Shown here piece by piece: positions 6,966-16,759 of a stretch of DNA of 32,303 nucleotides. A program made the translations under genes and the position numbers. The stretch lies in the NCBI GenBank assembly GCA_030612705.1, contig JAUWNI010000036.1:1-32303 (forward strand). The letters run 5' to 3'. A model generated the notes under the pieces. It made no database searches, had not been told where the DNA came from, and worked only from the letters and a program-made list of their open reading frames with translations. Source of the stretch: Phycisphaerae bacterium (lineage in GTDB: Bacteria; Planctomycetota; Phycisphaerae; UBA1845; Fen-1342). Every line of letters starts with the position of its first letter. Positions within the stretch are counted from its first letter, which is position 1.

Positions 6966-7075
6966 CAGACGCACCGGACAACGGGTGCCACCGGAGGCTC
7001 GTCCGCCGATGCCGACACGGACAGGCATGTCCGGGTTCAGCGTTCCGGCAGTCCCGGAGGGACGCAAGACAGTAG

Positions 7076-7095
7076 CCCAGGGCGTGAGCCCTGGG
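7076..7095. repeat. REP-like palindrome CCCAGGGC/GCCCTGGG
   Basis: This is a perfect 8-bp stem with a GTGA loop, within the repeat-rich gap before gspH. Nearby at 7112-7136 is a related palindrome around GCCCCGGAGGGGC. Neither is followed by a T run, so an intrinsic terminator is unlikely. Confidence 0.6.
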
Positions 7096-7204: not shown

Positions 7205-7224
7205 CCGGGGGCTCGCGCCCCCGG
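7205..7224. repeat. REP-like palindrome CCGGGGGC/GCCCCCGG
   Basis: This is a perfect 8-bp G/C stem with a TCGC tetraloop. It belongs to the same cluster of hairpin-forming intergenic repeats and has no T run after it. Confidence 0.6.
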
Positions 7225-7258
7225 CTATTAACTGCCGCCCCTCACGGGGCTGCGACGC

Positions 7259-7395: not shown

Positions 7396-8334
7396 ATGTA
7401 CGCGGACAAGCCGGCCGCGACCCGTGCCCAACGCGCGTTCACCATCGTCGAGATGATGGTCGTCATCGGTATCATCGCGCTGGTCCTGGCGTTCGGCGTG
7501 CCGGCGTTTAACAGCATGGCGGTGCAGCAGCGGCTGAGTAAGACGCGGCAGTTGCTCAACGGCACGCTGCTGCGCACGCACGTCGTCTCCGTCTCCGACC
7601 AGACGCAGACCGCTGTCCGGCTCTGTCCCGCCGACTGGCTCCTCCACGAGGACGCCGCCATGGGGCCGATCGCGGGCCGACAGATTATGACGACGTACAG
7701 CTATGTCTCGACATCCGCGGCGAATCCGAGCAACCCCACGCAAGTCTTGCTCGACGATCGCTTCGAGCGGATCGCGGACGGGCCGACGCAGTTGCTCCCG
7801 CCCGCGACCTGGATCGCACCGAGCGAAGCGCTGGACGACATTCGTAAGATTCCGATTATCGAGGGATGGGGTAATGACTACATCGGTGACTACGTGCTCG
7901 ACGGGACCATCGGCGAGTTCGATTTGAACGCCGATGACCGCAAAAACCCCGGCGAGGAGGTGCTCGACGCCGACGATTTCCTGATCGTCTTCGATCCCGA
8001 GACCGGCGTGCGTGGCAGCCAGCGGCGGCAGCCGTGGCGACTGCTCGCGTTCGATCCCCGGGAAGAAGGAGATGCAGCGACGGCGCAGCTCGAAACCGAC
8101 GGTGAGCGCGATTCTGGAACCGGCCAGACGATCGAACCGTTCCAGCGTTTCAATTTCACCGGGACGGTGATATATCAACGGGATGCGTTTACAGCCCTGG
8201 GGGCGGCGGCGAGCAGCCCCGACGAAATCCGTGCCCGACGCGGTGTCCTGCGGCGTTACGGACAGACGTACTACGTGGACCGCACCGGCGGCAATCTGGT
8301 CTCCGGCGGCGGTGAAGCCGTGGAGGAAGACTAG
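7396..8334 (+). CDS. gspH: GspH/FimT-like minor pseudopilin
   Basis: From ATG 7396 this is a 312-residue prepilin with a 14-residue leader ending ...AQRA, then FTIVEMMVVIGIIAL with Glu at +5. The following VPAFNSMAVQQRLSKTR and the helix continuing into an early strand are typical of GspH/FimT. The residue before the cleavage site is Ala, not the usual Gly. The soluble part has acidic loops (FDLNADDRKNPGEE, LDADD). No good ribosome binding site precedes ATG 7396; an in-frame ATG at 7312 lies inside the adjoining repeat and cannot be excluded. It ends exactly where gspI begins. It would sit near the pseudopilus tip with GspI, GspJ and GspK. Confidence 0.82.
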   Translation: MYADKPAATRAQRAFTIVEMMVVIGIIALVLAFGVPAFNSMAVQQRLSKTRQLLNGTLLRTHVVSVSDQTQTAVRLCPADWLLHEDAAMGPIAGRQIMTTYSYVSTSAANPSNPTQVLLDDRFERIADGPTQLLPPATWIAPSEALDDIRKIPIIEGWGNDYIGDYVLDGTIGEFDLNADDRKNPGEEVLDADDFLIVFDPETGVRGSQRRQPWRLLAFDPREEGDAATAQLETDGERDSGTGQTIEPFQRFNFTGTVIYQRDAFTALGAAASSPDEIRARRGVLRRYGQTYYVDRTGGNLVSGGGEAVEED

Positions 8335-10022
8335 TGCTCCGCCAGCGCTCAACCAATGGATGGGTGGCCCATGGCTTTAGCCGTGGGGGACGCGAATCAA
8401 CAAACCATTCGTGTCAGCGCTCAACCGATGGATGGGTGGCCCACGGCTTGTTACCTTGTCACCTTGTTACCTTGTCGCCAAAAAGGTGGGCCACCCCGGC
8501 GTTCAGTCTCGCCGAGTTGATGATCGCGCTGGTCATCCTTGGGCTGGGCCTGCTGTTCATCGCGGCGGCGTTGCCGGTCGGGCTGGAATACACCCGACAA
8601 ACGATCGCCCTCGAGACCGCCGAGGCCGCCGGCGAATCCGCCCTGAATCAACTCGAACTGAACCTGCGCACATCGATCCGGCTGTACGATTGGAACATCG
8701 CCGCGACGACGGTAAAGCGACATCGGCTTGACAACATTCACAGACCGCGCGAGATGATTCCAGGTGTACCGCCGAACCCGAATCGCTACCGATTGCGTCC
8801 GACGTACGAGCCGGTTATCAAGGTCCGCCCGCTGGCTTTGGGCAACATCGGGATGGCGCAGGTTCTGGGAGGCGAACCTCAGCGCGGAGCCGAGTTGGTC
8901 GACAACGCCGAAATGGCAATCTCGCTGTACTTAAAGTCAGTTTGGGGGATGAGCTTGCCATTAAATCTCCTGCGCAACGAGTTTGAATTCCCGTACGACA
9001 ACACCGGCATCTTCAACGATTTGGTGAGCTTGGTACAGAACCCGGTTCTGTCAGGTTTGGCGCGAGTGTATCCACCGGTCGAGCCTGTCACGACCTTCAC
9101 GGTCGCTAACTTCTTTGACGCTATAAATAACGACGGTTATCCGAAATATGACGCGCGCTTTCGAAACCCGCCGCTCGGTGATCTAGACAGCCTATACCGC
9201 GAGCGCCAGAAGGCTGTCGAGCGGCGCGTGGCGTGGACGGCGTTCTATCGCCGGTTGTCTTACAAAGGCAGCGCAGGTCCGGACGGCGTCTGGTATAGCA
9301 ACGATGACGTTGCCGAAGACCCGCTTTTGTACGAGCTGATCGTGGTAATTACGCAGCGGACTTCGCTGAACCATCGTTTCCCGCGGCAGGATCTCAGCGT
9401 AGCGAGGCCGTTTGAGCAACCGGCAGCGGTAGCCCCGACGACGACGATCCCGCTGGTTGGAACGGATCGCCTGGCGCCAACGCCGTGGTTGGTGACGTTT
9501 GACAGCACGCCGCCATCCGGCACCACGTGGGTCAACCCGGTGTTGCTACCGACGATGCATTACGCCGCCTGGCCGGATCCGTTGAATCCGAACTACATCG
9601 AGCGGGTCTTGCTTAACACATTCAGCGACCCGCCGACTCTGACATTCAAATGTACGCCTAACGTTGGAATGCTGCTGCCGGTGGGGAGCATATTCATACC
9701 GGCCGTTAACGATCAGCGTTATGTGCCGCCGACGATGGGGGTGGTTCAGCAGGTCGGATTTGTTCCGAGTGCCCCTGATGCACTCCCGATCTACGAGGTG
9801 GTCGAGCGGCCCGACGAGACGACGGTTATCGTCAAGAACAATGGATTCTACCCGTGGCTTAACCCTGGTAATAGTGGACTCAACGCGGCGTCCTTCCCCG
9901 TCTGGGTTATTCCGCCGGCGTTTGTCGAGCGCGATGGCTCCGGGCAGCCGATTTATGAACGCGGGTCGTCGATTCTGCAAATTGTGCGGCGGACGGTCAC
10001 GCTGCGTGAGATAACGCGATGA
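8334..10022 (+). CDS. gspI: GspI/PilV-like minor pseudopilin with repeat-derived leader
   Basis: This 562-residue prepilin has the segment FSLAELMIALVILGLGLL beginning at residue 57, characteristic of GspI/PilV. The GTG start overlaps the gspH stop by one base and has GGAGG (8322-8326) seven bases upstream, so it looks like the genuine start. Residues 4-48 are encoded by intergenic-type repeats (8343-8478), giving an unusually long 56-residue leader that the prepilin peptidase would remove. An internal TTG at 8472 would give a 10-residue leader but has no ribosome binding site. The residue before cleavage is Ala. The mature part is far longer than classical GspI and contains a loop SAGPDGVWYSNDD resembling the GspG calcium loop. 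The stop overlaps gspJ. Confidence 0.83.
   Translation: MLRQRSTNGWVAHGFSRGGRESTNHSCQRSTDGWVAHGLLPCHLVTLSPKRWATPAFSLAELMIALVILGLGLLFIAAALPVGLEYTRQTIALETAEAAGESALNQLELNLRTSIRLYDWNIAATTVKRHRLDNIHRPREMIPGVPPNPNRYRLRPTYEPVIKVRPLALGNIGMAQVLGGEPQRGAELVDNAEMAISLYLKSVWGMSLPLNLLRNEFEFPYDNTGIFNDLVSLVQNPVLSGLARVYPPVEPVTTFTVANFFDAINNDGYPKYDARFRNPPLGDLDSLYRERQKAVERRVAWTAFYRRLSYKGSAGPDGVWYSNDDVAEDPLLYELIVVITQRTSLNHRFPRQDLSVARPFEQPAAVAPTTTIPLVGTDRLAPTPWLVTFDSTPPSGTTWVNPVLLPTMHYAAWPDPLNPNYIERVLLNTFSDPPTLTFKCTPNVGMLLPVGSIFIPAVNDQRYVPPTMGVVQQVGFVPSAPDALPIYEVVERPDETTVIVKNNGFYPWLNPGNSGLNAASFPVWVIPPAFVERDGSGQPIYERGSSILQIVRRTVTLREITR
8343..8478. repeat. Composite repeat: duplicated 35-mer plus octamer array, inside gspI leader
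   Basis: A 35-bp unit beginning CAGCGCTCAACC is present twice (8343-8377 and 8415-8449; two substitutions). The first copy holds the hairpin CCCATGGC-TTTA-GCCGTGGG (8368-8387). Four octamers CTTGTTAC/CTTGTCAC/CTTGTTAC/CTTGTCGC follow at 8447-8478. Reverse-complement counterparts of both parts lie at 11900-12179 between gspJ and gspK. Here the repeat is read in frame as the gspI leader. Confidence 0.75.
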
Positions 10023-11533
10023 TGTTGGATTTTGCAAAGCTGGTATCCCGGATGCACGGACAAACGAGTTTGTCCGCGGCACCCGCGCCATGGCGTGGCA
10101 CGCGACGCCCCGCCTTCACGCTGACCGAGATGCTGGTCGCGTTGGCGGTGATGGTGCTCGCGATGGCGATGGTCACCGGCGTCTTCAGCATGACCACCAA
10201 GACGGCCGCCATCTCGGCCGCGATCGCCAACGTCGAGATGCTCGCCCGCAACTTTGCCGACCAGTTACAGCAGGACCTCGAATACTGCGACCCGACGCAG
10301 AGCGTCCTGGTCATCCACGGCCGCACGCAGGCCGCCGGCTTGACCGAGGACAGCCGCCAGGCCGGGCAGTACTACCGCGTGATGACGGGCGATCCGGCAA
10401 ATGTGACTGTTGGTTATAATACGCGGTTCGACCCGTCCTCGGGCGGGACCCCGTCGCGCGATCAGTACAGCGACCCGCGGGCCGACGTCCTGATGTTCTT
10501 CACCAACCGCCCAACCGTCTCCAAGGCCCCGGCGGTTAACCCGGCAAATACTTTCCAGCTCTCGCTCTATCGCGGCGCCCGGCAGTCGCCGATCCAGGTC
10601 GTCTACGGGCACGCCACGCTCGACACCGCGGTGCAGACTGGGGGAACCTGGCAGTTCGCGAACAACTTGCAGCACATTGAAACAACCCCGTCAACGAATC
10701 TGAGTCCACTGCCGGCCAGCCGCTGGCACCTTGCTCGCCGGGCGACGCTGCTAGGTGAGCCGCCGCCGGGTTACTATATGATCCCGAAGTTCAACAACAC
10801 TGATTTCCTGCGGATTTTGAGGTGTTACAGCAACAACGACAATTTCGCCGCCGATGCGGTGCGGTTCAGTCTTACGGACTATCTCAACGTGTTCGCGCCG
10901 TATGTGGATGTAGGTAGTGGGTCGTTAATGGGGCTCGCGCGACGAAGTCCGTATCTGTTTAAGGGCACTAGCTTTGGCCCTGGTCACATAGTATGGCCGC
11001 CCAATAAAACTGACTGGATCGACCGTGTGCTCTGGGCGTACGGAGACCCGCCAAACCACCACATTGCGACGGTGATCGAGCATCCGCCGGCGGCTTTGCA
11101 GGATAATCTGGGTCTGCACCTCGTGCCGGGGTGTGTCTGGTTTCAGGTTGAGCTTTTGCTGCCCGAGGACCCGCGTAACGGGCTCGATCATCCGTTATCG
11201 GATCAACGCCGCGATACGCCCCGCTGGGTCGAGGTCGAGGCCGGGCAGACATACGTTTTTGTGCCGGATTCGGACGAGAATCGCCAGTTGGTGGAACAGC
11301 AGGCGGTGGCGAACCCGATGAACGTCTCACTGATCGGTCAGCGAGTGTCGACGTTCATGCAGTTGGTACCTCCTGGGACCGTTGCCGGCGTCAATTACAA
11401 CGGTGCGGACACGATCGCCAATCGCCAGGTCCGCATGTGGCCTTATGCGATTCGTGTCACCGTTCGCGTGATCGATCAGCGTGGTCGGCTGGAGCAGCCG
11501 ATTGTTCGCAGTGTGGTGCATCGGTTTGATTGA
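10019..11533 (+). CDS. gspJ: GspJ/PilW-like minor pseudopilin
   Basis: This 504-residue prepilin has FTLTEMLVALAVMVLAMAMV starting at residue 33. Its following amphipathic helix contains ADQLQQDLE, as in GspJ/PulJ. The leader of 32 residues ends RRPA, again with Ala before the cleavage site. A perfect palindrome, GGACAAAC-GA-GTTTGTCC flanked by C/G (10057-10076), lies inside the leader and encodes GQTSLS. The ATG overlaps the gspI stop (ATGA-type), suggesting translational coupling; ATG 10052 is an alternative start. The protein is about 2.5 times longer than classical GspJ and has no recognisable extra domain. Role: tip-complex pseudopilin with GspI and GspK. Confidence 0.83.
   Translation: MMLDFAKLVSRMHGQTSLSAAPAPWRGTRRPAFTLTEMLVALAVMVLAMAMVTGVFSMTTKTAAISAAIANVEMLARNFADQLQQDLEYCDPTQSVLVIHGRTQAAGLTEDSRQAGQYYRVMTGDPANVTVGYNTRFDPSSGGTPSRDQYSDPRADVLMFFTNRPTVSKAPAVNPANTFQLSLYRGARQSPIQVVYGHATLDTAVQTGGTWQFANNLQHIETTPSTNLSPLPASRWHLARRATLLGEPPPGYYMIPKFNNTDFLRILRCYSNNDNFAADAVRFSLTDYLNVFAPYVDVGSGSLMGLARRSPYLFKGTSFGPGHIVWPPNKTDWIDRVLWAYGDPPNHHIATVIEHPPAALQDNLGLHLVPGCVWFQVELLLPEDPRNGLDHPLSDQRRDTPRWVEVEAGQTYVFVPDSDENRQLVEQQAVANPMNVSLIGQRVSTFMQLVPPGTVAGVNYNGADTIANRQVRMWPYAIRVTVRVIDQRGRLEQPIVRSVVHRFD
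10057..10076. repeat. Palindrome within gspJ leader
   Basis: CGGACAAAC and GTTTGTCCG form a perfect 9-bp inverted repeat with a 2-base loop. It sits in the part of gspJ that encodes the cleavable leader. It resembles the REP-type palindromes of the intergenic regions and may be a repeat captured by the coding sequence. Confidence 0.6.
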
Positions 11534-11545
11534 TGACCGGCTGAC

Positions 11546-11655
11546 GATTGGGGATTGACGATTGGGGATTGGAGATTGCACGGTCTCCCCCGCAACATCC
11601 ACTGGGCTCACACCTCTCATCAATCCGAAATCCCCAATCTGCAATCCCCAATCGA
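11546..11655. repeat. Inverted pair of GATTGNN heptamer arrays
   Basis: Five heptamers run in one direction (GATTGGG, GATTGAC, GATTGGG, GATTGGA, GATTGCA; 11546-11580). Five reverse-complement heptamers follow (CAATCCG, AAATCCC, CAATCTG, CAATCCC, CAATCGA; 11621-11655) after a 40-bp spacer. The whole can fold as one long imperfect stem. It begins 12 bases after the gspJ stop and may act as a transcript 3' end structure. Confidence 0.75.
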
Positions 11656-11695
11656 GCGGCCTACTGGAAGCTCCGCGGGCGCCAGCGGAGCCGAT

Positions 11696-11795
11696 GACGC
11701 TTCCCACGTCGACGTGGACGCTTCCCGGGGCGACGTGGACGCTTCCCGGGGCGACGTGGACGCTTCCCGGGGCGCCGGCGGCGCTTCCAGCGGGC
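11696..11795. repeat. 21-bp tandem repeat, three perfect copies plus degenerate flanks
   Basis: Three identical 21-bp units beginning GACGTGGACGCTTCCC occupy 11711-11731, 11732-11752 and 11753-11773. A partial unit lies before them (11696-11710) and a degenerate unit after (11774-11795). Because 21 is a multiple of three, every frame gives a heptapeptide repeat, but no frame has a convincing start or ribosome binding site. Confidence 0.75.
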
Positions 11796-11899
11796 CCGGC
11801 TGAGCTTCTGGGAACGCTCCCGACGCCTCCGGCAGGGCCCGTGACCCGTTTACCATGGCGTCACGTGGCGCAGTCACCCGCAATCACTCACTTAACCGG

Positions 11900-11987
11900 G
11901 TGACAAGGTGACAAGGTAACAAGGTAACAAGGTGACAAGGTGACAAGGCGACAAGGTGATAAGGTGATAAGGTGATAAGGTGATAAG
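11900..11987. repeat. Octamer array GTGACAAG, 11 copies
   Basis: Eleven head-to-tail octamers occur: GTGACAAG x2, GTAACAAG x2, GTGACAAG x2, GCGACAAG, GTGATAAG x4. The variants are grouped rather than scattered, as expected from local duplication by slippage. The same octamers in reverse orientation appear at 8447-8478 in the gspI leader. The pattern recalls the short tandemly repeated repetitive sequences of cyanobacteria. Confidence 0.85.
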
Positions 11988-12123
11988 GCGCGGCGGCCAC
12001 GCGAGGGGCTGATGTCCGCCTGTGTCGATATCGGGCACATGCGGGAGCGCGCGCCGGGCGCCATGCAACAGAGCCGGGCCGTCCCCGGCCCGGAAACCGG
12101 CGTGGCGACACGACGGGGCCGTC

Positions 12124-12179
12124 GATTCGTGTCCCCCACGGCTAAAACCATGGGCCACCCGACACGCCGTGCGTGTTGA
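12124..12179. repeat. Palindromic block homologous to the gspI leader repeat
   Basis: The stretch starting GATTCGTGTCCCCCACGGCT is the near-exact reverse complement of 8361-8397, including the CCCACGGC/CCATGGG hairpin. Both copies are bordered by GTTGAGCGC. Together with the octamers at 11900-11987 it forms a composite repeat shared by the two loci. Confidence 0.7.
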
Positions 12180-12265
12180 GCGCCAACCACGGCCAAGCTT
12201 CGCTTGACCGTGCCACCCCCTATCCAGAGTTCAAAGTAGGTGCTCTCAACGGCGAGGCCCAGCAA

Positions 12266-12349
12266 TAATCCCCAATCGTCAATCCCCAATCGTCAATCGT
12301 CAATCGTCAATTCCCAATCCCCAATCGTCAATCGTCAATCGTCAATCCC
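12266..12349. repeat. Heptamer array CAATCCC/CAATCGT, 12 copies
   Basis: Twelve consecutive heptamers run in one orientation, mostly CAATCGT and CAATCCC with one CAATTCC and a degenerate first TAATCCC. It is the same family as 11546-11655 and 23513-23586, but here without an inverted partner array. It lies about 180 bp upstream of gspK. Confidence 0.85.
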
Positions 12350-12532
12350 CATGCCCCTTTGGTTGCTGCCAACGGCCGCGCTGGTGTCACAGCAGGTTCC
12401 ATGGCCGTGCCGGTCGTGGTACAATTCGGTAAGACCTGTTTTTACAAGACGTTCCGTACCTGTTGGGACGCGTGGGAACATTGACCGAGCCATCATAATA
12501 GAGGTGGAAAGAAACTAAGGCGGAGCCTACAA

Positions 12533-15500
12533 GTGGATCATATGCGTGCCACAAAAACGAAGAATCGGCGTCGGGCGACCGTACTCCTGCTGGTGGTCAG
12601 CCTGCTGGCGCTGCTGTTCGTCATCGTCACCGGCTTTCTGAACCTGGCCCGGACCAACCGCGGGATGGTCGCCGACATTCAGCGGTCCAATCTCGCCGAG
12701 GCGATCTCGGAAGACATGGCCGACTGGGGCACGTCGCTGATCAAAGAACAGGTCGTCAACGCGTCGGGCAAGGTGCTGGCCGGGGGCAGCGGGCAGAACT
12801 GCTCCCTCGAAGACATCCCCGGCTATCGACATTCAAACTATCTCGCCGCCCTCGAACCGGTCTGGGATCCGGCCCCGTTCGTGCCTTCGGCGTTGAGCAC
12901 CGGCAGTTGGGCCGTACTCGGCCAGTTGCGCTGGCCGGCGGTGACCTCGCTGGACGACGGCGTTACAACTCCGCAGCCGTTCCCGCTCTTCCAACTCATG
13001 CGGGATTACGACTTTAGCAATACGGGGTTTCGCAAGACGGACGCCCAGTGGAACGCTCGCAACCCGTTCATGGATGCCGACGGCGACGGCGTGCCGGATT
13101 CGCACTTCCTGCTCTGCGCATCGGCGACGGAGGCCGCCAACACGATGGCCGGTGCGTCCGTGCAGCTCCCGCGCTATAACCCAGCGGGCTACGGTGGCGG
13201 TGCGTTTGTGCCGTACCGCATTCCCCGTCCGGGGTTTGACCCTGGTGGCCTGTTCCGTGGCGAAAAGTGGCAGCGCTACGACGAGCAGGCCCGCTACGAG
13301 GTTGCCATGCGGGTCATCTCGCACGGCGGAATGGTCACGCTCGATTCGCCGACGCTTTACAGTCCGAACGGCGCCACGGCCTATACGCCTTTCAATCGCG
13401 ATTTCACGATCAACATGTTCGACGCGGTAAGGCGCGGCGGGCGGTCGATGAGCAATCAGTACCAGGTCCTCAACGAGCAGCACCGTCTCTTCGACGACCT
13501 GCGCGCGAGTGTCGGCGCGGTCGAGTCGTCGTTGCGCCGGCGGTTCATCCTGCCGGCACCGGCGGAACTGGATCGCCAGCACCAGCAGATTCGACGCATA
13601 CCCCCGATCCTCGCCGAACTCCAGGGCGAGACCGACCTGCACGCCGGCTTCCCGGGGACGCTGGTTCCGTCGTTCAGATTCCCGGCCCCGCTGTCCAATC
13701 CGACGAACTGGCAGCGAATCAACATCGGCGTCGACTCCCGCAGCGGCGACGAACGCCTGGGCTGGGCCCTTGCTACCGCCTGGAACCCGACCACATACAA
13801 CACCACCGGCACCGGCCAGAGCTTGATGCAAACGCCGTACGACCGCCGACACTTCATCACGGCGATCAACAACAGCGACGAGCTGGCCCGGAAACAGGAA
13901 CCGAACGATCCCCAACCGACGTCGATCACGCGGCTCGACCTCGGCGCTCCGGACGATCACGGCGCGACGTACGAGGGTGAGCTAAAATTCTATCTCGGTG
14001 AGGTTGCCAAGGCGTTCGTGGAGGTCGACAACGCCGGAGTGCCTCAAGCGGGCACGGGTTGGTACAGCTACGATCTCACGAGGGGGAACCTCATTGTCGA
14101 GCGCCTCGCACGCCTGTATTACGATATGTTGAGAAGCCACTCGTCCGCGGGGGCGACGCCGGACGACTGGGGGGATGCGACTGACCCCAACGACACGGGT
14201 AGCACGCCGGTGAGAGAGGCGGCCAGCCGGCGCCAGCAGGCGATGATGCTGTCGGTCAACACCGTCGCGTTCGCCGCACCGCGCAGCATCGACCCCAACG
14301 CTCCCGGGTTTATCCCGGTCGTTTCGTACGCCGACGTCATCAGTGGCGGCGTGGCGTACGATAACCCGTTGGGCAATGGTACCGGTGCCGACGATATCAG
14401 GTATATCGGCTACACGCCGCAGCCGTTCTTCACCGAGGTGATCGCGTACCGCGAGGCTGACGCTGATCCGAACGACCCGAACTACGTGTCCGATCCGAAC
14501 GACCCTGAGTACGATGACCCGAACGCTCCGAACCTCGTCCTGGCGGTTGAGCTGTATAACCCGAACACGCCGTGCTACGACGGATCGACCGACACGTACG
14601 GCTTGGTCGATGTGCACGGGGCGTGGCTGCCACAATTCGCGATCAGCGTGAACGGCGCCAATCCTGGTGATCCAAACGACGTCGACCAATGCCAGCAGTT
14701 CGGCCTTACGTTCGGTTTTAGCCAGCGCCTGAACGGTCGCTCTTTCATGCGGCTGGTGATCGAGAACGACGAGAGCTCCCATTTTAACTCGCTGGTGAAT
14801 TCCAACCCGCCGGACTTCGCGCTGAAGATCAGCCTCGACATCGAGGATGATCCCAGCAACCCGGAGACGTTGACGCTGTGGCGCTGGGATTGGCGTGACG
14901 TAGCGGGGAATCCGGTCCGTGTCTGGTTCCCGGTCGACGAGATCGAGATCGGGAACTCGTGGCCCGGCACCGGTTTCTGGAGGAGCGCGTACCGTGACAC
15001 CTCGCCGAACCGGGAGTACGCCGCTCCGGACTACGACGTTGATGGGCTTTTCGAGTACGCGCGCTGGAACGTCATTGCCCGCCAGCGCACGTCCGTGCCT
15101 CCGACGACCACACCCGGAAAGCCGCAGACTGGGTCGATTGGGAATTCCGCGTGGCTCTTGGCAGACGGGCCCAAGCCTGAGCTCGGAGTCTTGCAGTCAC
15201 CCGACATGGTTGGAATGCTCCCGGTCGCGTTCTCGCCGACAACGACGTTGATCACGATGAACGCCGGTCCGGTCGTGGTTACGGGCGCCGAGCCACTGCA
15301 TCAGCAGTTTAGCAACTACCCGATGTTCGGCGCGCTCGATGCGGTCGGCAGACCGATCGACCCGCGGCCGCGCTCGTTTCCGACAGTCGGTTTCCTGCTG
15401 TTCGTGCCGCGCTTCTCGCACATGCAGAAAGTCATCGCCGGCACAGACAACCCCGTCATTCCGATATCAGAGACGCTGACGAAGCAGTGGTCGAATCAGG

Positions 15501-16759
15501 GCTATGCCATTAGTAACGGCTCGTACGTGACGTCTGCCGACTATCCAGCCGACTTCGGGCACATGCCGGTCTTCGATAACACGCAGCAAGTGCCGGGCGG
15601 CTCGTACTTTGACAATACGACCGGCGTTGGGAACTTGCCGTGGGGGCAGTTGGTCTTCGACTACTTCACGACGCTCGACCCGATACGCGACGTGAGCGGT
15701 GACGGCGAGCCGGACATCGACCCGCTGCGCATCCCCGGGCGGATCAACATCAACGCGGCACCGTGGTACGTGTTGGCGAACCTGCCGCTGTTGGGGCCGG
15801 ACGGTACCAATGAGCTACCCGTGCGGCCCTTCGGCACCGGGGTGGTGCCTACCGCGGCTGAGCCTTCTCCGGCGTTCTGGGATCCGTTTGCGGGCATGCT
15901 TGTCGGGTGGGATTCGTATGGCACCACGGCGCGCCTCCTGGCACAGGATCCCGCGTATACGTCTGCGCCCCTGTTCGAATACAGCGTCCCGTACGCTCCT
16001 ACTATCGGGCTGTCTATCGGCCGTTATCGGCTCGGACCGTGGTTGGCGCAGTCGGCGGCGGCCTATCGCGACGGGGTGCAGTACGTGCCGAATAATGCAA
16101 GTCACTTGTTTTACGTCTATTCGGACGCCCAGGAGCGGAATCTGGGTGCGGTCTTCATGAAACACCGGGCCGATGCCCGGTATGGCACCGTGCGCGGCCA
16201 GGCAACGGCGTCCGGCGCGTCGCCGACGCAGTTCGGCTTCGTCAGCGTGGGTGAACTCCTGAACGTGAAGGGATTGGACTCTTCCACCGACGTGGATTTG
16301 CTGACGCCCGATTTCAACGGGGCCGGTTCCGCCGACTCCGCAGTCGCGCGGGGCGACTTCGTGAAAGCCGTCAGTGTCGTGGCGCTGCTCGACTCGCAGT
16401 ACCTGACGACGCGGAGCAACACGTTCACGGTTTACACGACCGTCATGGATCGCGAGGATCCGCAGGCCAGCGTGCGGTCGCAGGTCACCGTCGATCGCAG
16501 CAACCTGCTGACGCGCCTGACGTATGCGTTCTACTACTACGATAGTGGTACGACGACGCACTACTACTATCCACTGCTGAAGCCGTACTTGAGCGATCCG
16601 GCATACAACTCGCTGCCGGTCGTGCCGCGGTTGCTCAATCTCGATGGCGATGCGTTGGCGATTCCGGAAACGCCCGTTCGGACCACGAATGGCGGGGCGT
16701 TGCCGCGGGTTATTGCCAAGGAGCGGGTGGGGTATTACAACGCTCGCTACGACGATTAG
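12533..16759 (+). CDS. gspK: Giant GspK-like tip pseudopilin
   Basis: This 1408-residue protein occupies the gspK position. Its N-terminus is basic (TKTKNRRR) followed by a hydrophobic helix (about 15-36, ATVLLLVVSLLALLFVIVTG) and no Glu at +5, which is the known exception in GspK. Near the C-terminus, GRININAAPWYVLANLP (about 1069-1085) matches the GspK INxNTAP motif. GspK is usually about 300-350 residues, so roughly a thousand residues are additional. Calcium-loop-like motifs occur at DADGDGVPDS (181-190) and DVSGDGEPDID (1053-1063), and residues about 642-667 are DPN-rich. GTG 12533 has GGAG (12522-12525) seven bases upstream; ATG 12542 is possible. It would cap the pseudopilus tip and may contact substrate or surface. 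Confidence 0.82.
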   Translation: MDHMRATKTKNRRRATVLLLVVSLLALLFVIVTGFLNLARTNRGMVADIQRSNLAEAISEDMADWGTSLIKEQVVNASGKVLAGGSGQNCSLEDIPGYRHSNYLAALEPVWDPAPFVPSALSTGSWAVLGQLRWPAVTSLDDGVTTPQPFPLFQLMRDYDFSNTGFRKTDAQWNARNPFMDADGDGVPDSHFLLCASATEAANTMAGASVQLPRYNPAGYGGGAFVPYRIPRPGFDPGGLFRGEKWQRYDEQARYEVAMRVISHGGMVTLDSPTLYSPNGATAYTPFNRDFTINMFDAVRRGGRSMSNQYQVLNEQHRLFDDLRASVGAVESSLRRRFILPAPAELDRQHQQIRRIPPILAELQGETDLHAGFPGTLVPSFRFPAPLSNPTNWQRINIGVDSRSGDERLGWALATAWNPTTYNTTGTGQSLMQTPYDRRHFITAINNSDELARKQEPNDPQPTSITRLDLGAPDDHGATYEGELKFYLGEVAKAFVEVDNAGVPQAGTGWYSYDLTRGNLIVERLARLYYDMLRSHSSAGATPDDWGDATDPNDTGSTPVREAASRRQQAMMLSVNTVAFAAPRSIDPNAPGFIPVVSYADVISGGVAYDNPLGNGTGADDIRYIGYTPQPFFTEVIAYREADADPNDPNYVSDPNDPEYDDPNAPNLVLAVELYNPNTPCYDGSTDTYGLVDVHGAWLPQFAISVNGANPGDPNDVDQCQQFGLTFGFSQRLNGRSFMRLVIENDESSHFNSLVNSNPPDFALKISLDIEDDPSNPETLTLWRWDWRDVAGNPVRVWFPVDEIEIGNSWPGTGFWRSAYRDTSPNREYAAPDYDVDGLFEYARWNVIARQRTSVPPTTTPGKPQTGSIGNSAWLLADGPKPELGVLQSPDMVGMLPVAFSPTTTLITMNAGPVVVTGAEPLHQQFSNYPMFGALDAVGRPIDPRPRSFPTVGFLLFVPRFSHMQKVIAGTDNPVIPISETLTKQWSNQGYAISNGSYVTSADYPADFGHMPVFDNTQQVPGGSYFDNTTGVGNLPWGQLVFDYFTTLDPIRDVSGDGEPDIDPLRIPGRININAAPWYVLANLPLLGPDGTNELPVRPFGTGVVPTAAEPSPAFWDPFAGMLVGWDSYGTTARLLAQDPAYTSAPLFEYSVPYAPTIGLSIGRYRLGPWLAQSAAAYRDGVQYVPNNASHLFYVYSDAQERNLGAVFMKHRADARYGTVRGQATASGASPTQFGFVSVGELLNVKGLDSSTDVDLLTPDFNGAGSADSAVARGDFVKAVSVVALLDSQYLTTRSNTFTVYTTVMDREDPQASVRSQVTVDRSNLLTRLTYAFYYYDSGTTTHYYYPLLKPYLSDPAYNSLPVVPRLLNLDGDALAIPETPVRTTNGGALPRVIAKERVGYYNARYDD

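Follow-up and report, generated by a model that had tools for sequence, protein, structure and literature searches.

Why does the open reading frame at the gspI position of a Phycisphaerae gsp cluster begin in repeat DNA, and is this DNA read as a prepilin leader? The locus lies in a window of 32,303 nucleotides (contig JAUWNI010000036.1 of assembly GCA_030612705.1), where a frame of 562 codons is open from 8334 to 10022. An earlier, sequence-only reading of the window had proposed that the leader is a permissive site for repeats, since the leader is removed from the mature protein. We consider it probable that a MITE landed at this junction, was rearranged and now provides an in-frame leader of 56 residues that is removed by the peptidase, and that repeats recurrently survive at such junctions.

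Anatomy of the gspH-gspI junction

Gene names are used here in a positional sense, because no GspI model matched the mature protein. Neither Pfam nor NCBIfam gave a match that would assign the 562-aa product to GspI or another named family, and the name gspI follows from its operon position after GspE, GspF, GspG-like and GspH-like genes. The product scored 21.5 bits for N_methyl (cut-off 21.2) and presents a class III prepilin signal, with a basic leader ending in G or A followed by F, E at +5 and a hydrophobic stretch (PKRWATPA^FSLAELMIALVILGLGLLFI). The genome contains one Peptidase_A24 gene, and the codons contributed by the element all lie N-terminal to the predicted cleavage site.

As first described, GTG 8334 overlaps the gspH stop codon (TAG at 8332-8334, GTG at 8334-8336), GGAGG stands seven bases upstream, and the frame stays open through the repeats to FSLAELMIAL, up to 8502. 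The start was then thought to look native. This holds for the Shine-Dalgarno sequence, but the GTG and the gspH TAG both lie within the 5' terminal repeat of the MITE, whose end reads CTAGTG. Comparison with other copies indicates that the GGAGG is native and that the putative start codon is part of the MITE. The same reading had counted some 136 bases of repeat after the start. The duplicated 35-mer and the octamers are indeed present, and the octamers do recur in the gap between gspJ and gspK (as GGTGACAA at 11899-11988, with another copy of the palindromic core at about 12110-12160). The repeat DNA is nevertheless more extensive: it spans 8331-8496, including the stop-start overlap and the KRWAT codons, and accounts for the gspH TAG, the GTG start and 54 of the 56 leader codons (Table 1).

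The two copies of the 35-mer (8343-8377 and 8415-8449, 94% identity) are offset by 72 nt, a multiple of three, such that the frame is kept. Three to four octamers follow, and the complete leader reads VLRQRSTNGWVAHGFSRGGRESTNHSC-QRSTDGWVAHGL-LPCHLVTLS-PKRWATPA. A spacer of five bases (CGGCG) is all that separates the 17-base MITE 3' remnant from the mature part of the gene. Instead of some 45 residues added onto an existing leader, as had been supposed, the native leader would have been essentially replaced, with the last two residues (P A) as all that remains. On the alignment with intact copies, the frame of the MITE is preserved end to end in the gspI leader and the basic residues at the predicted cleavage site are MITE-encoded. 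The open frame alone carries little weight, since frame +1 is likewise open across 8334-8500 and frame +2 contains one stop; the weight comes from the comparison across genomes.

Table 1. Features of the gspI locus (positions in the window).
Feature	Position	Strand	Remarks
Upstream pseudopilin (gspH position)	7396..8334	+	C-terminal tail of 10 residues past NLV, equal to same-genus relative
GGAGG Shine-Dalgarno	8322..8326	+	Within gspH 3' end, outside the MITE; duplex energy -9.3 kcal/mol for GTG 8334
MITE 5' terminal inverted repeat CTAGTGCTCCGCCA	8331..8344	+	Same end in many copies
MITE 5' half with REP-like hairpin GGTGGCCCATGGCTTTAGCCGTGGG, translated VLRQRSTNGWVAHGFSRGGRESTNHSC	8334..8415	+	61 own-genome DNA matches; aligned copies; intact-MITE peptide
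Truncated second copy of MITE segment (35-mer), translated QRSTDGWVAHGL	8415..8449	+	
TTGTYACC octamer array (TTGTTACC/TTGTCACC), translated LLPCHLVTLS	8447..8478	+	Octamer also at 11899-11988
MITE 3' palindrome remnant AAAAAGGTGGGCCACCC, encoding KRWAT in the MITE's own frame	8480..8496	+	16/17 match to intact MITE; intact-MITE peptide PPPLKRWATQS
Mature pseudopilin (gspI position), 506 residues, class III motif A^FSLAELMIALVILGLGLLFIAAALP	8502..10019	+	
Downstream pseudopilin (gspJ position)	10019..11533	+	ATGA overlap with gspI; leader of at most 32 codons without tandem array

The MITE family in its genome

The MITE unit is 154 bp long (CTAG(T/C)GCTC...GAGCACTAG), and intact copies consist of the terminal repeat CTAGTGCTC, two oppositely oriented hairpins and GAGCACTAG. 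The terminal repeat was matched 339 times genome-wide, relative to 24 times for a control pattern, and the ends are often paired, facing each other 154 bp apart. A DNA search with 8334-8415 matched at least 61 sites in the 4.4-Mb genome, and in the aligned copies the element starts at CTAG, just 5' of and across the GTG (CTAGTGCTCNGYCA). A short unit of non-coding size, terminal inverted repeats and a high copy number are the properties of a MITE, and the 154-bp units show all three. Most intact copies present CTAG at both ends, which is compatible with either a target-site duplication or a part of the repeat; no parent transposon with these ends was found. At gspI, the MITE is intact at its 5' end only.

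Translated from their own GTG, intact MITEs read VLRxxSxDGWVAHGFSRGGxES...PPLKRWATQS without a stop, and their remaining frames are stopped. These peptides have GWVAHGFSRGG and KRWAT in common with the gspI leader. It is a long shot, in our view, that the CTAGTG end acts as a portable stop-start (the TAG/GTG overlap) followed by a stop-free frame, by which an insertion at a gene end would stop the preceding gene, reinitiate translation and supply the next gene with a basic leader, in a family shaped for packed operons with prepilin leaders as its refuge.

Many CTAGTGCTC ends are found less than 200 bases from contig ends (e.g., C7:66, C38:24, C77:172, C94:75, C114:120 and C116:144). The family probably interrupts contigs in the assembly and is probably present in more copies than counted. 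Near the match at L067, a different palindromic core (AGCCGCGGACTTCAGTCCGCGCGG) lies between CTAGTGCTC-type ends, which suggests that these ends may mobilise different REP cores.

Repeats in the leaders of related pseudopilins

Alignment with close relatives had been suggested as a check on insertion, and the closest one, of the same genus (G001; JALSRY010000050, L091), gave the expected picture. Its mature residues 1-25 are identical to those of gspI, its leader is short and free of repeats, and the distance from stop to mature part is 73 nt versus 167 nt in the window, with a gspH tail past NLV of equal length. Other leaders presented heptamers (L113 and L114), GGCACGAA octamers (L100 and L110), NPKSKIQNPKSKI heptamers (L099 and L101) or a REP pair (G036, where a single possible ATG is located 50 codons 5' of the cleavage site). 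In a DNA search of eleven leader segments (14 genomes), most were multi-copy in their own genome (G010, G016, G019, G020, G036, G041 and G043); for two of the eleven, in G018 and mainly G044, the own-genome search gave no clear sign of dispersal. Comparison of these loci supports the recurrent, in-frame entry of unrelated repeat types into pseudopilin leaders in many related genomes. A phylum-wide search with one heptamer leader and its pilin start returned ordinary pilin matches only.

We then quantified tandem arrays across 36 Phycisphaerae/Planctomycetota loci with 167 pseudopilins. The density of arrays of period 7 or 8 reached 10.4% in leader DNA and 0.10% in mature pilin DNA; for other ORFs it was 1.0% over the first 60 codons and 0.10% in the body, and it was 2.3% in the remaining DNA. 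These arrays occurred in 34 of the 167 leaders and in 15 of the 36 genomes; of 167 windows of equal size placed in mature coding sequence, 0-2 were hit. Only tandem repeats were counted, so that most MITE and REP cases are missed, and the counts are not fully independent, since the genomes, which are metagenome assemblies, and the paralogues are related. Arrays of periods 5, 6, 10, 11 and 13 were absent from leaders, which indicates that the leader signal is specific to repeats of 7 or 8 bases.

Between array and cleavage site, no stop interrupts the pilin frame in 32 of 34 cases, in contrast to 38 of 68 for the other frames (Fisher test, P = 4e-5), and 25 of 32 array-bearing junctions present no ATG, GTG or TTG after the array. 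Together, these results argue that the arrays are translated and do not serve as untranslated spacers; some starts lie inside arrays, and not every array need be fully read. Only this frame test is strong, as openness within the arrays is common to all frames (45, 37 and 37 of 47 arrays are stop-free in the three frames). Reading the repeat stretch in the pilin frame did not clearly raise its net charge over that obtained in the other frames (P = 0.75 and 0.12), which provides no evidence of selection on charge.

The distribution of arrays among pilin genes is uneven. In G017, G020 and G042, an array was present for 9 of 16 pseudopilins in the gsp clusters, and none of the 26 best-scoring alone-standing pilin genes of these genomes had one in its leader or within 210 bases 5' of it. 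The proposal of a permissive leader therefore stands in part: repeats do enter in frame, recurrently and as unrelated types, but permissiveness is not a sufficient cause given the isolated pilins, and we reject it as the whole cause. A close-packed operon, whose stops and starts often overlap, appears to matter. The start overlaps or touches the upstream stop in 16 of 32 array-bearing junctions versus 30 of 96 others, and median junction length is 172 bases with an array and 97 bases without. In the window's own genome, we found 34 N_methyl genes and examined 30 loci, among which a clear leader array was detected in L140 only; of the 34, gspI is the second gene with repeats. L140 (G000:C210:12344) carries heptamers in its leader (NQQSAISNPKSQ), and two further pilin genes adjoin it on C210.

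Hairpin elements are known modulators of mRNA. The confinement of repeats to the multi-gene cluster, and their absence from alone-standing pilin genes, would also be expected if hairpins and arrays were kept to stabilise or process the polycistronic mRNA, or to tune translation between subunits, with their position in leaders as a by-product. However, repeats from different genomes share neither sequence nor structure, and 96 of the 128 sister junctions have none. We regard a role in the mRNA as unlikely.

Start codon, proposed history and relation to known elements

Duplex energies with the anti-Shine-Dalgarno sequence were -9.3 kcal/mol for GTG 8334, -8.6 for TTG 8448, -2.4 for the two internal GTGs and +1.0 for TTG 8472. 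Based on this value and on the overlap with gspH, GTG 8334 is the best start candidate. Rather improbable, in our assessment, is a start at TTG 8472 (or TTG 8448), with a short leader of the ordinary kind, untranslated repeats and an accidentally open upstream frame. A start at TTG 8472 would give a 10-residue leader (MSPKRWATPA) of the usual, canonical length (most alone-standing pilins present about 6-24 codons), the Shine-Dalgarno sequence of TTG 8448 is fair, and intact MITEs contain no stop in that frame in any case; Di Nocera et al. (PMC3733652) also caution that many REPs at ORF N-termini reflect misannotation. Yet TTG 8472 lacks a Shine-Dalgarno sequence, most comparable array junctions have no start codon 3' of the array and a preferentially open pilin frame, and a start at TTG 8472 would still keep the MITE-derived KRWAT in the leader. 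Initiation may instead occur at TTG 8448, in which case the leader would still be repeat-derived. A decayed gene or an assembly chimera is very improbable: the genome is a MAG of 214 contigs with MITE ends close to many contig ends, but the 506 mature codons are intact and conserved, the frame is kept across four junctions and the pattern recurs in 14 other assemblies.

We thus return to a MITE-derived leader read from GTG 8334. Its anatomy, its MITE origin, the recurrence of repeats, the frame bias and the mostly missing later starts are read in the DNA itself; initiation at 8334, cleavage, near-neutrality and the order of events are what we infer. The 154-bp MITE, with its CTAG...CTAG ends, would have inserted at the gspH-gspI junction and been partially duplicated, and the octamer array would have grown or arrived. 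The MITE 3' end would also have been lost along with the native leader, which would have fused element DNA in frame to the mature pseudopilin. Ribosomes terminating gspH would restart at the overlapping GTG with the help of the native GGAGG, and the element would be translated as a basic leader of 56 residues. Prepilin peptidase would cut at A^FSLAEL on the cytoplasmic side, such that the repeat peptide would never be found in the pseudopilus. More generally, the start would often be pinned where the preceding gene ends, and nearly any basic, stop-free stretch ending in Ala or Gly might serve as a leader. In a packed and coupled operon that pins the start in this way, anything arriving at the junction would persist only if translated as leader. 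Junction and leader may thus be where unrelated repeats survive, because the start is pinned and the requirements on the leader are low.

Several known systems resemble parts of this locus. Rickettsia palindromic elements (RPEs; Ogata et al. 2000) are, as reviewed in PMC10969869, mobile and about 150 bp long; they carry an open frame and are translated as in-frame insertions in protein genes. The gspI element is also palindromic, mobile, open-framed and in frame in a protein gene. RPEs, however, are found in many unrelated proteins and are retained in the product, whereas here several unrelated repeat types share a single cleaved segment within one gene cluster, and a start codon also lies in the element. 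With the predicted cleavage, the element peptide would be absent from the final product and the locus would be RPE-like only up to processing. In Yersinia, a palindromic MITE of 168 bp forms part of the predicted signal peptide of YPO1552 (Delihas, PMC2229807). There too, the frame of a MITE is fused in frame into a predicted N-terminal export signal, but this concerns a single locus and a predicted secretory signal peptide; here, the leader is of the class III prepilin type, expected to be cleaved at the cytoplasmic face, and the arrangement recurs in many genomes.

The ends of GTAG-type REPs, associated with RAYT, are reported to provide TAG stops to flanking ORFs, and many were noticed at ORF N-termini and then dismissed as probable misannotation (Di Nocera et al. 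2013, PMC3733652). The elements described here similarly present GTGG/GGTGG (GGTGG being the tag) followed by an imperfect hairpin, paired hairpins in opposite orientation and a high copy number, in a genome with 12 Y1_Tnp genes. They differ in that the core is embedded in a larger unit bounded by inverted CTAG...CTAG ends and that no RAYT was linked to the family. Prepilin leaders are variable in length, end in Gly or Ala and are cleaved at the cytoplasmic face (PMC10191384, PMC6497953). Long leaders, such as those of type IVb pilins and of PilE1/PilE2 in S. sanguinis, likewise vary in length and need the terminal Gly/Ala for cleavage (PMC10191384, PMC6497953), but these are not reported to be repeat-derived, in contrast to the 56-residue leader of gspI. 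In the literature searched, we found no earlier account of repeats in prepilin leaders or of leaders as a recurrent site for them.

Repeat-derived leader peptides appear compatible with a conserved pseudopilin. These loci may represent a natural repeated experiment on the minimal needs of a prepilin leader, in which unrelated, junk-derived peptides, some 50 residues long at most, directly precede the cleavage site. They would also illustrate how mobile and tandem repeats enter coding sequence while sparing the mature product, and how a start codon can originate from a mobile element. This could account for unusual N-termini in the annotation of planctomycete pseudopilins, which would otherwise pass for annotation errors.

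Further repeats are found around the cluster. The gap at 11540-12360, between gspJ and the ORF at 12533, is dense in CAATCCC heptamers, octamers, 21-mers and a REP core and is an untranslated counterpart of the leader repeats. That ORF (12533-16759, 1408 aa, gspK position) has a basic and hydrophobic N-terminus, and neither Pfam nor NCBIfam matched it. In the intergenic gap preceding gspH, Rfam Acido-Lenti-1 matches at 7050-7095 (-) and 7205-7251 (+), inverted and about 110 bases apart, look like a paired mobile element and not like two sRNA genes. An ORF from TTG 6739 runs through this pair and is probably spurious 5' of about 7396. Finally, a G-rich tandem stretch at the contig start (1-93) is possibly an assembly edge artefact.
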